Positions 10,660-64,000 of a DNA stretch of 64,000 nt are shown one piece after another. The DNA comes from Rufibacter roseolus (GTDB taxonomy: Bacteria; Bacteroidota; Bacteroidia; Cytophagales; Hymenobacteraceae). The translations under genes were made by a program, and so were the position numbers. Position 1 is the first letter of the stretch, and each line of letters starts with the position of its first letter. The notes beneath the pieces were generated by a model. It worked only from the letters and a program-made list of their open reading frames with translations. It was not told the DNA's origin and made no database searches. Location of the stretch: assembly GCF_017916365.1 (NCBI RefSeq), contig NZ_JAFMSU010000001.1, forward strand, positions 806,001 through 870,000, in the 5' to 3' direction.

Positions 10660-11409
10660 TTAGTTGCGGCTGTTCAATTTAGAAAGCAGTCGCAGGATCT
10701 CAATGTACAGCCAGATCAGGGTGACAGCCAACCCGAAGGCAGCGTACCACTCCATGTTCTTGGGGGCGCCATAGGTCACGCCTTGCTCAATGGTGTCAAA
10801 ATCCAGGATCAGGTTCATGGCCGCGATGATCACCACCAGAACACTGAAGATAATACCAGCCGTGCCGGTGCTATGGATCAGGGCCATCTCCACCCCGAAG
10901 AACTGCAGCACAAAAGAGATCATGTAGTAGCAGAAAATCCCGAAGGTGGCCGTAATGATAATAGACTTAAAACGCTCAGTCGCTCTGATGACACCAGTGC
11001 TGTACAGCAGCAGCATACCCCCGAACACGGTAAAGGTGAGTAGCATGGCCTGGTTCGCGATGCCAGGAAACTTCATTTCCAGAATACCGGAGACGCCACC
11101 CAGGAACAATCCCTGCAGCGCGCAGTAGATGGGGGCAATGTAAGCCGCCCAGTGTTTTTTGAAGACAATCAGGAAGGCCAGCCCTACGCCCACCAGCGGA
11201 ATGGACACCAGGAACGGCAGGGGAACGCCCATCACGGAGAACAGATCCCAGGAGAAAACAGCGAACGCCAGTACAATGCCCAGCAGCAGCGCCGATTTTG
11301 CAATGGTGCCGTTCAGGGTCATGACCGGACCTTCAACGGCTTGCGGAACTGCCGCCTGCATAAACGCTTCTTCTTTTAATGCGGGGTTGTTAGAAGAGAA
11401 AAGTGACAT
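10660..11409 (-). CDS. Bax inhibitor-1/YccA family membrane protein
   Basis: 249 residues, with about seven membrane helices after a ~35-residue cytoplasmic N-terminus (MSLFSSNNPALKEEAF, then MTLNGTIAKSALLLG). The last helices carry the BI-1-type region: LILDFDTIEQGV, where the acidic residues line the pore in characterised BI-1 homologues, and WYAAFGLAVTLIWLYIEILRLL. BI-1 proteins are pH-sensitive calcium leak channels in studied cases; a role here is inferred from the family only. Monocistronic by context. Confidence 0.9.
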   Translation of the reverse strand: MSLFSSNNPALKEEAFMQAAVPQAVEGPVMTLNGTIAKSALLLGIVLAFAVFSWDLFSVMGVPLPFLVSIPLVGVGLAFLIVFKKHWAAYIAPIYCALQGLFLGGVSGILEMKFPGIANQAMLLTFTVFGGMLLLYSTGVIRATERFKSIIITATFGIFCYYMISFVLQFFGVEMALIHSTGTAGIIFSVLVVIIAAMNLILDFDTIEQGVTYGAPKNMEWYAAFGLAVTLIWLYIEILRLLSKLNSRN

Positions 11410-11507
11410 GTTTTTAGCTTGTTTTCACGAAAAGTAGACAAAAATCAGTAGAAATACAAGCTAAAATCGGGCCGATAAAGGCCTGAAGCGCAAAACATCC
11501 GCTTCTT

Positions 11508-11539
11508 TTTGGATTCAAAAGGAACACCTTGTACCTTGC
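11508..11539 (+). promoter_or_regulatory. Promoter of feoAB
   Basis: TTTG (11508-11511), 20 bp, TACCTTGC (11532-11539), one T short of the ideal -7 box. It argues for the GTG start of feoA at 11575. I see no clear Fur box. Confidence 0.5.
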
Positions 11540-11574
11540 GGCTGTTTATAACAAGTCTAAATAAGAGAAGCAAG

Positions 11575-11808
11575 GTGCAAAGAGAGCAAAAGAGTGTGCG
11601 GGATTTGAAGATTGGGGAGAAGGGGGTGATCTGTTGCTTAACCGACCCCGAAATGTCTTTGAAACTGCTGGAGATGGGCTGTATTCCCGGCGAGGAGGTA
11701 AAACTCAACAGCCGTGCCCCCCTTGGCGACCCCATTACCATCATTGTGAACGATTACACCCTTTCCTTGCGTTTAGACGAAGCTGCTACCATCAAGTTAA
11801 AGGCTTAG
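11575..11808 (+). CDS. feoA: Ferrous iron transport protein A (FeoA, SH3-like)
   Basis: 77 residues from GTG 11575. FeoA is a small cytoplasmic SH3-fold protein needed with FeoB for Fe(II) uptake. Hallmarks: VRDLKIGEKGVI, LKLLEMGCIPGEEV and a closing LSLRLDEAATIKL. Length fits the family (75-90). The frame is open further up to 11509 but that part overlaps the promoter. Stop is 3 bp before feoB, so the two are translated together. No feoC is seen after feoB. Confidence 0.9.
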   Translation: MQREQKSVRDLKIGEKGVICCLTDPEMSLKLLEMGCIPGEEVKLNSRAPLGDPITIIVNDYTLSLRLDEAATIKLKA

Positions 11809-29675: not shown

Positions 29676-29802
29676 CCTCTTTTATCATCTGAATTATTCC
29701 TTTTGCCATTCTGATTAATTCTCTTGTCATCTGGGTTATTTCCCTTTGTCCTCCTGCTTCTTTCCCTTTGTCCTCCTGCTTCTTCCTCTTTTGTCATCCT
29801 GG
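29676..29802. repeat. Degenerate tandem array of a ~22-bp unit
   Basis: Six units of 21-23 bp in a row: 29676, 29699, 29721, 29742, 29764 and 29785. Unit form is CCYTTTGTCATCCTG plus a T/A-rich tail. Units 4 and 5 (CCCTTTGTCCTCCTGCTTCTT) are identical; units 1-3 are more diverged; unit 6 continues into the dispersed 38-bp repeat. The opposite-strand frame here encodes only low-complexity charged sequence and is not a gene. Confidence 0.7.
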
Positions 29803-29822
29803 AAGGATCTTGTGAGCGAACT
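29785..29822. repeat. 38-bp dispersed repeat, copy A
   Basis: CCTCTTTTGTCATCCTGG then AAGGATCTTGTGAGCGAACT; identical to 61878-61915 except one base. It has the form of the GTCATCCTG...AGGATCT repeats found in many bacteria. Confidence 0.8.
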
Positions 29823-60366: not shown

Positions 60367-61155
60367 TTACAGGTTGCCTAACCGTCCGCCGTCTACGGGC
60401 ACGTTGATGCCGTTGATGTAGCCCGCAGCAGGCGAGGCCAGAAACGCAGCGGCGGCGGCTATCTCAGCAGGCTCCGCAAAGCGGTTAGCCGGAATGCCCG
60501 CCAGCATTTCCTTCTCGATCTCTTCTCTTCGGAGGCCGGTTTTCTGCATGCGGGTTTCAATGAGCGAGTGATGGCGAGCGGTAAGCGTGGCCCCGGGAAG
60601 CACGTTGTTCACGGTAATGCCAAAGGGCGCGAGCTCAAAGGAGAGCGTCTTCGCCCAATTGGCCACGGCGCCCCTAATGGTGTTAGACACGCCTAAACCT
60701 TTGATAGGCTGCTTCACTGAGGTAGAGATAATGTTGATGATGCGGCCGTACTTCGCCTCCTGCATGTACGGCACTACCGCCTGTACCAGCACATGGTTAG
60801 ATAACAGGTGTGCCGCGAAGGCATTCTCAAACTCCTCCAATGCCGCATCCAAAGCCGGTCCGCCCGCCGGTCCGCCGGTGTTGTTCACCAAAATATGCGC
60901 TTGCCCTAGTTTTGCTAAATGAGCCCCTAAACGCTCCTGCACCTCCCGCGGCCGTCCCAAATCTGCTACCACGTACTGGTGCTCTTGTCCGGCCTCGGTG
61001 GAAAGTTCTTTGAGGGTTTCCTGCAGGCGTTCCTCGTTTCGGGCCACCAGCGTGACCGTGGCACCCATGAGCGCCAACTCCAGCGCTACCGCTTTACCAA
61101 TTCCTTGCGTACTGCCGCAGACCACGGCGTGCTTGTGCTGTAAATTTAAATCCAT
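60367..61155 (-). CDS. SDR-fold oxidoreductase lacking the canonical catalytic Tyr-Lys
   Basis: 262 residues. Rossmann fold with GSTQGIGKAVALELA, VNNTGGPAGG and a closing YINGINVPVDGGRLGNL. Where SDRs have Ser...Tyr-x3-Lys the sequence is STSVKQPIKGLGVSNTIRGAV: Ser is kept, but the Tyr and Lys positions are Val/Ile or Arg. This matches the subgroup described as beta-ketoacyl-reductase-like SDRs that lack the full catalytic tetrad. Role unknown; the location between the ALDH and HAAO genes suggests a link to tryptophan catabolism. Confidence 0.82.
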   Translation of the reverse strand: MDLNLQHKHAVVCGSTQGIGKAVALELALMGATVTLVARNEERLQETLKELSTEAGQEHQYVVADLGRPREVQERLGAHLAKLGQAHILVNNTGGPAGGPALDAALEEFENAFAAHLLSNHVLVQAVVPYMQEAKYGRIINIISTSVKQPIKGLGVSNTIRGAVANWAKTLSFELAPFGITVNNVLPGATLTARHHSLIETRMQKTGLRREEIEKEMLAGIPANRFAEPAEIAAAAAFLASPAAGYINGINVPVDGGRLGNL

Positions 61156-61194
61156 AGAGGTAAATGTACAGATTATTATGGAGCAGCGGAACGG

Positions 61195-61234
61195 GTGTTT
61201 TAAGGCCGCTTTTTAGAAATTGGCTTCAAAGCGG
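61195..61234. repeat. Dispersed nested palindrome, copy 22
   Basis: GTGTTTTAAGGCCGCTTTT then GAAATTGGCTTCAAAGCGG, in the divergent gap between the SDR and HAAO genes. Confidence 0.7.
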
Positions 61235-61321
61235 CGTCTATCTTTTATGCGGCAGGTTTCGTACCTTGGAGCAGTCTGGGGCATGAACCTAAGACGCATT
61301 ATTTACCCAAACACTAATGCC

Positions 61322-61849
61322 ATGGCCTTACAATCTGCCTTCAACTTCAAGAAATGGATAGAAGAACACCGCCACCTGCTTAAGCCGCCGGTGGGCAACC
61401 AACAGGTGTACAAAGACAACAAAGACTTTATTGTGATGGTGGTAGGCGGACCCAACTCGCGGAAGGATTACCACATCAACAACGGCGAGGAGTTCTTCTT
61501 CCAGCTGGAAGGCGATATCGTGCTCAAGGTCATTGACAACGGCGAGTTCAAAGACATCCACATCAACGAGGGCGATATTTTCCTGCTGCCGCCCAACGTG
61601 CCGCACTCCCCGCGCCGAGGCCCCAACACCGTGGGCCTCGTAATGGAACGCTACCGCAACGAAAGCGAGATGGACGGTTTCCAGTGGTACTGTGAGAACT
61701 GCAACACCAAACTTTACGAGGAGTTTATCCCGGTATCGGACATCGTGGGGCAGTTGCCCGTGGTGATGAACGCCTTCTGGGAATCTGAGGAGAAACGGAC
61801 CTGCTCAAACTGCGGCGAGGTGTTGGCCAAACCGGCTCCGGTGCAGTAA
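61322..61849 (+). CDS. 3-hydroxyanthranilate 3,4-dioxygenase (HAAO)
   Basis: 175 residues from ATG 61322, which gives the family N-terminus ALQSAFNFKKWIEEH; earlier in-frame codons back to 61220 do not fit. Cupin enzyme that opens the ring of 3-hydroxyanthranilate, a tryptophan breakdown product. Fe ligands His51, Glu57 and His95 (DYHINNGEEF and NVPHSPRR) agree with the bacterial enzyme; the C-terminal rubredoxin-like CENC...CSNC knuckle is complete. The product leads to the aldehyde handled by the ALDH at 58401. Confidence 0.94.
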   Translation: MALQSAFNFKKWIEEHRHLLKPPVGNQQVYKDNKDFIVMVVGGPNSRKDYHINNGEEFFFQLEGDIVLKVIDNGEFKDIHINEGDIFLLPPNVPHSPRRGPNTVGLVMERYRNESEMDGFQWYCENCNTKLYEEFIPVSDIVGQLPVVMNAFWESEEKRTCSNCGEVLAKPAPVQ

Positions 61850-61877
61850 GTGGTCAATAAAGTAATAGAGACTTCAA

Positions 61878-61915
61878 CCTCTTTTGTCATCCTGAAAGGA
61901 TCTTGTGAGCGAACT
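61878..61915. repeat. 38-bp dispersed repeat, copy B
   Basis: 37 of 38 bases match 29785-29822 (CCTCTTTTGTCATCCTGA..., ending GTGAGCGAACT). It marks the upstream border of the A+T-rich gene that follows. Confidence 0.8.
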
Positions 61916-61943
61916 GTGGGGCCTTAGTCTTAATTTATACCTT

Positions 61944-62585
61944 ATGATGCTTCTTGGAAAAATTCAGGACGAAAAGTACATAAACGATATGTACGAGAAT
62001 GAATATCTATATTTTAACAGTTTAAAATATTTCAGAAGTGATTCCAAGGATATAACTGGAAGATTAGATCCAAGAGAATTAAATACTAAGAACTTACAAT
62101 TAAAAAATCTTCTAATTAAAAAAGGAGATGTAGAAATAGAACTGAGTGAGGCTTTGTCTAATTTCAGCGGCCAATATATGGAACACCCTGATGATTCTAC
62201 GGTCAGTTGTTGTTCACTTTTTACAATTGACATTGATCTTAATGGTGTTTTATCAAATGTAAGTGACAAAGCTTTAGAGATGGGTAATAAAATGTTGCTC
62301 ATTTTTGATTGCTTAGCCTTTTTTAAGATTCTTGATGAATCAATAGTAAAGTGTGGCTATGAATATAAAAGGAGGCCAGTAATATATTATGATCCCAAAA
62401 CTTATAATGGAGATTTGACTTTACATCATAAAGATCTGGCTTTTAAGTTTCAAGAAGAATACAGGATTCTAATAGAGTCGAAAGAAAATCAACCGATAAA
62501 AATTCCTCTTCCTGGATTAAGGAACATAAGTGTAGTCATTGATTCAATGGCTGCTAAGACCCTAGAATTAAAACAAAAACAATAA
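61944..62585 (+). CDS. A+T-rich orphan gene of unknown function
   Basis: 213 residues from ATG 61944 (the frame opens at GTG 61905, inside the 38-bp repeat, which I do not believe is translated). Composition is far more A+T-rich than the flanking genes and codon use differs, as for acquired DNA. The N-terminus (MMLLGKIQDEKYINDMYENE and YLYFNSLKYFR) resembles the start of widespread small proteins of unknown role, sometimes in defence regions, that carry a K-x-x...N-x-L-x-Y-F-R pattern; I have only memory for that. No membrane helix or signal. A terminator hairpin follows. Confidence 0.6.
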   Translation: MMLLGKIQDEKYINDMYENEYLYFNSLKYFRSDSKDITGRLDPRELNTKNLQLKNLLIKKGDVEIELSEALSNFSGQYMEHPDDSTVSCCSLFTIDIDLNGVLSNVSDKALEMGNKMLLIFDCLAFFKILDESIVKCGYEYKRRPVIYYDPKTYNGDLTLHHKDLAFKFQEEYRILIESKENQPIKIPLPGLRNISVVIDSMAAKTLELKQKQ

Positions 62586-62636
62586 TATCATTACATGACT
62601 CTACTAGGATATTGCTAAATGAACTACCTGACAACA

Positions 62637-62672
62637 CAAAGGCCCGCCTTCTCCAGAGAAAGCGGGCCTTTG
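62637..62672. terminator. Bidirectional terminator between convergent genes
   Basis: CAAAGGCCCGC pairs with GCGGGCCTTTG around CTTCTCCAGAGAAA. Confidence 0.85.
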
Positions 62673-62682
62673 CTATAACTGC

Positions 62683-62721
62683 CGTTTCAGCGCCGATTTT
62701 CAGAAATCAGCCTGTAAACAG
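62683..62721. repeat. Dispersed nested palindrome, copy 23
   Basis: CGTTTCAGCGCCGATTTTC then AGAAATCAGCCTGTAAACAG, one base before the YebC-family stop codon at 62723. Confidence 0.7.
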
Positions 62722-62722
62722 A

Positions 62723-63442
62723 TTATTCTTCTTTCATGTTGTGGTACACGGCCTGTACGTCATCGTCTTCTTCCAGACGGTCTATGAGTTTTTCCATGTC
62801 TTCCTGCTGCTCCGGGGAAAGTTCTTTGAGAACGGTAGGATAGCGCTGCAACTCAGAGGTTTTCACGTGAATGCCGCGCTCTTCCAGGGCTTTCTGCATG
62901 GCCCCGAAGTCTCCGAAAGAGGTTTGGATGATGATCTCGTTTTCCTCTTCGTCTTTGTCAATGCTCTCCAGCCCGAAGTCAATCAAATCCAGTTCCAGTT
63001 CTTCCATGTCCAGGCCTTCAGCGTTCAAATGGAACACGCCTTTGCGTTCGAAGATGAAATCGAATTGGCCGGTGCGGCCCAGCTCACCGCCGGTGCGGTT
63101 GAAGTGCATGCGCACGTTGGCCACGGTGCGGTTCACGTTGTCGGTGGCGGTTTCTACCAGAACGGCCACGCCGTGCGGACCGTAGCCCTCATATACCACT
63201 TCTGAGTAATCGCTTTCTTCTTTGCCTTGGGCCCGTTTAATGGCGGCTTCCACGCGGTCTTTGGGCATGTTCACCCCTTTGGCGTTCTGGATGCACACCC
63301 GCAGACGAGCGTTGGTGTCTGGGTCGGGTCCGCCGGATTTCACGGCCATCACAATCTCTTTCCCTATGCGGGTGAACTGCTTGGACATCATGTCCCAGCG
63401 TTTCATCTTCCGGGCTTTCCGGAACTCAAATGCTCTTCCCAT
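62723..63442 (-). CDS. YebC/PmpR family protein
   Basis: 239 residues. MGRAFEFRKARKMKRWDMMSK, then FTRIGKEIVMAVKSGGPDPDTNARLR and NAKGVNMPKDRVEAAIKRA are the classic N-terminal helical block of the family, followed by the two alpha/beta domains (YEGYGPHGVAVLVETATDNVNRT). Long described as DNA-binding regulators, some members have been shown to relieve ribosome stalling at proline runs. Monocistronic here by context. Confidence 0.94.
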   Translation of the reverse strand: MGRAFEFRKARKMKRWDMMSKQFTRIGKEIVMAVKSGGPDPDTNARLRVCIQNAKGVNMPKDRVEAAIKRAQGKEESDYSEVVYEGYGPHGVAVLVETATDNVNRTVANVRMHFNRTGGELGRTGQFDFIFERKGVFHLNAEGLDMEELELDLIDFGLESIDKDEEENEIIIQTSFGDFGAMQKALEERGIHVKTSELQRYPTVLKELSPEQQEDMEKLIDRLEEDDDVQAVYHNMKEE

Positions 63443-63507
63443 GCGGTTAGTCTAAAACAAAGTACAGACAAATATCGGGAAAAACGGCGGATAGCCCAAG
63501 CGGGTTG

Positions 63508-64000
63508 CTACACATGTTCGGCTAAATAATCTTCCAGCTTCAGCTTGCCTTTGATAGGGGCCACGCAGTCTCTTTTAGTGACTTCCACAAAGAAGGCGGC
63601 CTTCTCGTAGAGCGATCGGTTCACCAGCCGCACCATGGGCAGAAACGAGTTCACCACCCAGTACGGCACCTTAGGAATGGCCTTGTTTCCCTTCCCCACG
63701 GCCTTGCCCACCAGTTGCACCAGCTCCAGACGCGAATAGGTAACAGGACCTCCCAGTTCTATCACTTTCTCCGGCGAGGTGAGCGCCTGCACACAGGCCT
63801 CGGCCACTTCCTGCTCATGGATGGGGTTGGTGATGCGCTCGCCGTCGCCAATGGAGGCCAGGCGTCCCTTGCGGGCCATGGGCAGCAGATCCAGGAAAGC
63901 CGAGAAGAGCGCCGGCGGTTTAATGATGGTAGAGGCAATGCCGCTTTGCTGCAGCGCTTGGGCGAAGTCTTCGTGCGCCCTGAAGTAGGCTACGTGCGGG
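63508..64000 (-). CDS. NAD(P)-binding atypical SDR / NmrA-like protein (N-terminus outside window)
   Basis: 164 residues are visible from the window edge to TAA at 63508; the N-terminal Rossmann core lies beyond 64000. The frame reads on without a stop through PHVAYFRAHEDFAQALQQSG, IASTIIKPPALFSAF, then NPIHEQEVAEACVQAL and FVEVTKRDCVAPIKG. The YFRAHEDF pattern has the Tyr-x3-(Lys/His) place of extended/atypical SDRs, and KPPALFSAF matches the NmrA/YesF type. No Met upstream of 63879 is required. Function unknown; the substrate region is cut off. Confidence 0.8.
   Translation of the reverse strand, partial: PHVAYFRAHEDFAQALQQSGIASTIIKPPALFSAFLDLLPMARKGRLASIGDGERITNPIHEQEVAEACVQALTSPEKVIELGGPVTYSRLELVQLVGKAVGKGNKAIPKVPYWVVNSFLPMVRLVNRSLYEKAAFFVEVTKRDCVAPIKGKLKLEDYLAEHV

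Follow-up and report, generated by a model that had tools for sequence, protein, structure and literature searches.

An A+T-rich orphan gene in a variable core-gene interval of Rufibacter roseolus, predicted to encode a protein that is probably a distant cousin of bacterial antiviral enzymes

Among described proteins, those with which the product of the gene analysed here can best be compared are the family DUF2971 (PF11185), the PADLOC candidate PDC-S31 and, at a greater distance, the ADP-ribosyltransferases (ARTs), in which the Glu motif opens a core strand, with DarT (PF14487) foremost. In the open-access literature searched, PDC-S31 was not mentioned and the term DUF2971 occurred in one paper. 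With regard to the locus, the closest description is that of integrase-less hotspots of horizontal transfer (Oliveira et al., 2017; PMC5635113). Like these hotspots, the locus is a core-gene interval whose content turns over although no mobile element adjoins the gene; unlike them, it was compared here across a genus, from a single genome of each species.

The whole stretch of DNA analysed, 64 kb of the R. roseolus genome, is referred to as the window, and the A+T-rich gene and its product as the window gene and the window protein. The features concerned are as follows, in window coordinates.

61322–61849, plus strand: HAAO-like gene (3-hydroxyanthranilate 3,4-dioxygenase-like; putative name from an earlier reading), left core flank
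61878–61915, plus strand: REP-like half element, the left arm of a REPIN-like palindrome, present after HAAO in 6/16 genus genomes
61944–62585, plus strand: orphan gene of high A+T content, product of 213 aa, family distantly resembling DUF2971
62638–62672 (about), no strand assigned: terminator hairpin usable on both strands, −19.6 kcal/mol on the plus and −31.6 kcal/mol on the minus strand
62723–63442, minus strand: yebC (YebC-like; putative name from an earlier reading), right core flank, convergent

The window gene is directly flanked, as judged by eye, by the core genes HAAO and yebC, and the sharp contrast in base composition with both, from which the initial annotation had started, was borne out by a GC content of 0.307 for the gene (61944–62585) vs 0.546 for HAAO (61326–61849) and 0.542 for yebC. 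When 642-bp windows were slid along the 64 kb in steps of 20, those lowest in GC also fell on this gene, whose product length of 213 aa is counted from the first of two ATGs. As a proof of recent arrival, however, low GC was weakened by the other loci of the family. When ORFs of at least 120 aa delivered by a simple ORF caller of our own were compared, the family gene lay below the median GC of its neighbours at 20/20 loci (barely so in L096) and was the lowest of all at 17/20. Low GC is thus weak evidence of recent arrival, and A+T-richness is a trait of the family. A Rfam scan of positions 61000–63600 yielded nothing at the gathering threshold.

HAAO adjoins yebC in all 16 genomes of the genus, with spacers of 774–5104 bp, a GC content of 0.34–0.49 and differing content; conserved core flanks around varying cargo, the hallmark of a hotspot, were found in 16/16 genomes. 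Presence of the window gene at this locus throughout the genus with the same composition, the finding proposed at the outset as speaking against acquisition, was not observed, and the gene was missing from the locus in 15/15 other genus genomes. Together with relatives of 43–51% identity outside the genus, this absence supports well the earlier reading of the gene as acquired cargo. The empty site joining the repeat to the terminator that had been predicted along with it was not found, as none of the 16 genus genomes carries an empty HAAO–yebC site.

Reading of the spacers by eye and by Pfam on 25 chosen ORFs (23 of the 36 spacer ORFs and two more) revealed a DUF433/DUF5615 pair in three of them (G003, G005 and G012), SnoaL-like proteins in G007, G014 and G015, a Mrr-type endonuclease in G007 and, in shorter form, in G014, SpoIIAA-like proteins in G001, G008, G009 and G013, and an IS1-type transposase in G013. 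By eye only, a large amylase-like protein was recognized in G002 and a membrane protein in G004, and G010 has short ORFs only. The same gene types recur in several spacers, and some contents are therefore common to several genomes. In a tree of the flanks (HAAO and yebC), the source genome groups with G012 and G002 (99/95) and then with G004 (93/92), and these four genomes have four different slot contents, placing the turnover between species, at roughly 84–95% flank identity. The interval containing the other copy of the repeat served as the control: in 13 genomes with split matches, 17–426 bp lie between the match ends, and in two other genomes besides the source genome one match spans the interval, this being a comparison with one control interval only and with one genome per species. 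The content of the slot varies among the genus genomes and its borders are resident. On a small scale, the HAAO–yebC interval offers a model for the exchange of cargo where, as with the window gene, no mobile element lies alongside.

Across the genus the HAAO–yebC spacers (L045–L059) form a small-cargo slot. Within it, the reading frame of the Mrr-type gene extends to 179 codons in G007 but to only 118 in G014 (L057:2572-2928, L058:1660-2199), and the diverging C-terminal end of the shorter gene of G014 suggests a frameshift.

Both borders of the gene are resident at the locus. At the 5′ border, alignment of the repeat (61878–61915) with the copy at 29785–29822, some 32 kb away, showed 38 bp with one mismatch, exactly as initially annotated. 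A 25-bp core of this repeat occurs in 66 copies (≤3 mismatches) in the 5.5-Mb genome, vs 0 for a reversed control pattern, and some copies form inverted pairs ∼60 bp apart whose sequences show a hairpin-type doublet. High copy number, dispersal and inverted pairing of palindromes, which characterize REPs and REPINs, were all found, and the dispersed repeat is a REP/REPIN-like element of which the window site has the left half only. A REP half begins 18–53 bases past the HAAO stop codon in 6/16 genus genomes (G000, G012, G015, G011, G003 and G014), where it outscored 200 shuffles of the same stretch; the match in G006 was borderline and more distant. In the five genomes other than the source, different genes stand behind the REP half at HAAO, and the repeat was therefore not brought by the window gene. 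At the 3′ border, the initially annotated terminator is real, with a stable hairpin on either strand, and the palindrome that follows it is weak (−5.1 kcal/mol). A similar hairpin was seen by eye before yebC in the other genus genomes. The second REP half (29785–29822) stands between rsmI-like and alpha/beta-hydrolase-like genes (names given by eye) and has no cargo.

A single-sequence search recovered the window protein in 6/98 genomes, source included, and the only other member in the genus, in G011, is 22% identical and lies at a different locus. By profile search the family was found in 16/390 genomes of the order and 3/395 of the phylum, the source being counted in both. The closest relatives (43–51% identical) come from four genomes outside the genus, namely Aquirufa, Algoriphagus, a Cyclobacteriaceae MAG and a Prolixibacteraceae MAG. 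The window gene is intact and solitary, with close relatives found only outside the genus. Plasmid-borne relatives were detected in Flammeovirga, Aquicella and Methylobacterium, and another query returned 10 plasmid records (Aquicella, Photobacterium, Acinetobacter, Methylobacterium, Pseudomonas and Shewanella), five of which were typed as conjugative, one of them 3.97 Mb long. On a Pseudomonas cerasi plasmid the relative starts 61 bp past a pair formed by an N-6 methylase and a BsuBI/PstI-type endonuclease; in Aquicella a tyrosine recombinase precedes it and an AbiJ-NTD4 protein is encoded in the vicinity; and in Methylobacterium it is adjoined by a YhaV/PrlF pair. The Flammeovirga and Acinetobacter records and most of a further set of loci showed no setting of this kind, and by eye most of 15 neighbourhoods look ordinary. 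On a conjugative plasmid of Shewanella baltica, a RES-domain gene (L215:9820-10527) lies ∼4 kb from the family gene.

Comparison of 62 chosen neighbours from 17 loci at E 1e-4 gave no conserved partner gene; the similarities between loci at this threshold comprised one short-chain dehydrogenase-like pair, one fumarase-like pair and RAYTs. In a PADLOC scan the same 62 neighbours matched 68 models, the 25 listed ones each by one member; the neighbours were the nearest ones plus some chosen as defence-like, and no defence enrichment is drawn from them. NCBIfam, applied to 10 neighbours, returned four RAYT proteins, one death-on-curing-type match just over the cut-off and MazF-type matches below the cut-off; another of the proteins drew two unrelated matches, both weak, and three drew none. 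PHROG 26561, a cluster built from viral proteins and without function, matches 16/16 members of the family (best E 4.6e-25) and the window protein nearly over its full length (residues 3–205, E 2.3e-9). In contrast, tblastn of three members against 50,697 phage records gave no match, and two IMG/VR scans with 154 and 76 candidate stretches gave no confirmed relative. The family is thus patchy, A+T-rich and single-gene, with a PHROG counterpart but no Pfam model.

Direct classification of the window protein gave little: no Pfam family matched at E values up to 10, nothing was called by NCBIfam, the DUF2971 gathering score was not reached, and the match to the PADLOC model PDC-S31 was weak (E 0.014, not significant). 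At family level, DUF2971 appeared weakly in 4/16 members (best E 0.038), and the 16 members gave one hit to each of two PDC-S31 models (best E 0.0011). One PDC-S31 model matches 10 of 11 collected DUF2971 proteins at E ≤0.1 (best 1.8e-59). Alignment of the family profile with subsets of DUF2971 by hhalign scored 70% (E 4e-5), 47% (E 1.9e-4), 36.6% and 5.7% (E 0.0066), and with DarT 0.2%. The window protein is 18–49% identical to the other 15 members; D42, K163, Q170, E172 and R174 are invariant in 16/16, position 6 is K or R in 16/16, and position 45 is E, replaced by D in 2/16. The K-x(n)-E-x-E-x-R block that DUF2971 carries on a core strand is found in the window family with Q for the first E. 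Like DUF2971 and PDC-S31, the family has a strand-helix-strand N-terminus followed by an acidic motif, a K-helix-[QE]xExR stretch and a similar order of elements; unlike DUF2971, it is shorter, lacks the W..HY...H.G.C block (by eye) and begins the E-x-E motif with Q. In our estimate, the window family quite likely belongs to the DUF2971 superfamily as one of its distant branches.

AlphaFold models of the window protein (pLDDT 88.3) and of one DUF2971 protein (86.6) have in common a strand-helix-strand, core strands and a K-short helix-strand unit with [QE]-x-E-x-R, DUF2971 having extra helices in between, according to our own reading of the printed lists of secondary-structure elements. The window-protein model had no match in PDB or BFVD at E 0.001 by Foldseek and only two rows in VIA-align (Z 2.5 and 2.0), and searches by sequence for solved relatives of A1, A2, A4 and A7 found none. 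The structure prediction and profile search proposed for the 213 residues thus point to a probable distant relation to DUF2971 and gave no useful match to a solved structure. For the DUF2971 model, Thermus DarT took ranks 1 and 2 in Foldseek (E 0.0099 and 0.049; prob 0.90 and 0.60), the better of these being the best PDB match, and none reached E 0.001. VIA-align returned 11 entries with Z ≥5 for this model, all of which we take, in part by their titles, to belong to the ART superfamily: chain A of the Mycobacterium tuberculosis DarTG complex (Z 7.3, 141 aligned, 3.6 Å), four Thermus DarT entries (6.8–7.0), yeast Tpt1 (6.7), E. coli DarT1 (5.5) and four ubiquitin-binding effector/CteC entries (5.2–6.0); the next row, unrelated, had Z 4.3. 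Profile comparison of DUF2971 with DarT failed (0.2–0.3%), and the link to ARTs is for this reason one of fold. As a VIA Z below 8 lies in the range that the tool calls common arrangement and the DarT profile was negative, an ART fold of DUF2971 is, on the model, put at likely and not higher.

Across 11 DarT proteins, the Glu in the stretch KQAEFLV, presumably the catalytic residue, is invariant, and 8/11 have Q-x-E at this Glu. E172 of the window family would be its counterpart, and Q170-x-E172, which opens a core strand, is together with K/R6 on the first strand reminiscent of how NAD-binding and catalytic residues are laid out in ADP-ribosyltransferases, DarT foremost. The likeness to DarT and other ADP-ribosyltransferases would lie in the fold of the related DUF2971 model and in the Q-x-E motif. 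Unlike DarT, the window protein has no HxxN motif (by eye) and no profile similarity, and, unlike in DarTG, no DarG-like gene was seen by eye beside the window gene, where HAAO and yebC stand. The hint of a defence function in the initial annotation receives modest support, from the distant relation to DUF2971/PDC-S31 and from the one plasmid relative that follows a restriction–modification pair.

We therefore favour, with a probability of about 0.5, the reading that the window gene is a horizontally acquired single-gene cargo in a turnover spot and encodes an ART-like conflict effector that acts alone. The product is predicted to be, probably, a distant cousin of bacterial antiviral enzymes, with a fold, an activity and a part in defence that we infer. 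On this proposal, the gene would have been acquired horizontally as a single gene, into the slot between the convergent core genes HAAO and yebC. The content of the slot may be exchanged through homologous recombination in the flanking core genes, a route suggested because no integrase or transposase lies beside the window gene. The protein, as a putative divergent branch of the DUF2971/PDC-S31 superfamily, would be inactive or little expressed in the resting state. Upon phage infection or plasmid entry it would use NAD+ to ADP-ribosylate nucleic acid or protein, and replication or translation might be blocked as a result. It would act as a solitary gene, which is proposed because no conserved partner was found beside it.

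Other explanations differ from this proposal in how the gene came to its place or in what its product does. The initial annotation had the gene ‘placed at a repeat’, and one such explanation would be that it was carried or placed by a REP/RAYT machinery, with the REP half as the mark of a RAYT-made insertion. The repeat does end 28 bp before the start codon, and RAYT genes or remnants were found within 1.2 kb of a family gene in 3/18 genomes (G282, G371 and G409) vs ∼0.06 expected from 75 RAYT matches, a limit set after seeing the data (P 0.0008 at 5 kb and 0.005 at 10 kb). In the source genome, however, the nearest RAYT match is ∼62 kb from the window gene, and the REP half precedes other cargo in the five further genomes. 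Nor were REP gaps enriched in A+T-rich genes: in a sample of 1.02 Mb, made up of 51 segments of 20 kb that surround REP copies and the locus, 0/56 REP gaps bordered an ORF of GC <0.37 vs 15/522 gaps without REP (Fisher P 0.38). The window gene is left out of this count because an alternative GTG start leaves its gap under the 60-bp minimum; its inclusion would make 1/57. Placement by REP/RAYT is accordingly very unlikely, and the part of the annotation that made the repeat the site of placement is not supported. As a cargo site, REP was rejected in view of the sister genomes and the gap test. REP gaps were convergent in 21/56 and divergent in 3/56 cases. RAYTs and family genes perhaps collect in the same kind of gap.

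An ordinary ORFan or a remnant in decay, playing no part in conflict and tolerated because strong terminators shield the gap where the convergent genes meet, would agree with the orientation of the flanks, the terminator, the patchy distribution and the failure to find a conserved partner among the chosen neighbours. Yet the ORF is full-length and retains all five invariant residues at 18–49% identity to the other members, half of the 10 plasmid records are typed as conjugative and a PHROG family exists, making this account rather improbable. About equally improbable is a mobile-element or prophage gene that serves its element, as moron or anti-defence, and not host defence. The matches of PHROG 26561 to the whole family and to the window protein argue for it, as do the plasmid relatives beside the integrase and AbiJ-NTD4, the YhaV/PrlF pair and the restriction–modification genes; the phage records and IMG/VR scans, in which no relative was matched or confirmed, and the core genes that immediately neighbour the window gene argue against it. 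The product might finally be DUF2971-like and no ADP-ribosyltransferase, the resemblance of the DUF2971 model to ARTs reflecting a common arrangement. Z values of at most 7.3, Foldseek E values no better than 0.0099, the missing profile support and the window model without a match are in keeping with this; against it, the 11 best entries come from what we take to be one superfamily before the first unrelated row, and the Q/E-x-E element opens a core strand. We regard this last account as unlikely, though to be taken seriously.

The reading as acquired cargo with a solitary ART-like effector offers a testable function for a family without one. More tentatively still, DUF2971 and the [KR]...D..E...K...QxExR family together might constitute an unrecognised DarT-fold ART clade of antitoxin-less solitary conflict effectors that move as bare A+T-rich genes among turnover spots, plasmids and prophages, a generalization we hold with clear reserve. 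Should DUF2971 and the proteins related to it be effectors with an ART fold, a mechanism would become available for many orphan genes of bacterial genomes and plasmids, and one could ask directly how an enzyme resembling a toxin stays silent when it has no antitoxin.

A few observations on individual loci may be added. The RAYT genes or remnants within 1.2 kb of a family gene lie at L161:8893-9420 and 11059-11586, L166:8770-9162 and L095:5151-5768; NCBIfam labels them REP-associated tyrosine transposases, at two of the three loci below the curated cut-off, and the match in G371 has stop codons. In L059:726-2847, four small genes of two SpoIIAA/STAS-like types (by eye) alternate in one slot. 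Lastly, two congeneric species carry the family gene beside the same fumarase-like gene (93% protein identity; L154:8285-9679, L158:8209-9645), and there the family gene seems to have been retained while staying A+T-rich.
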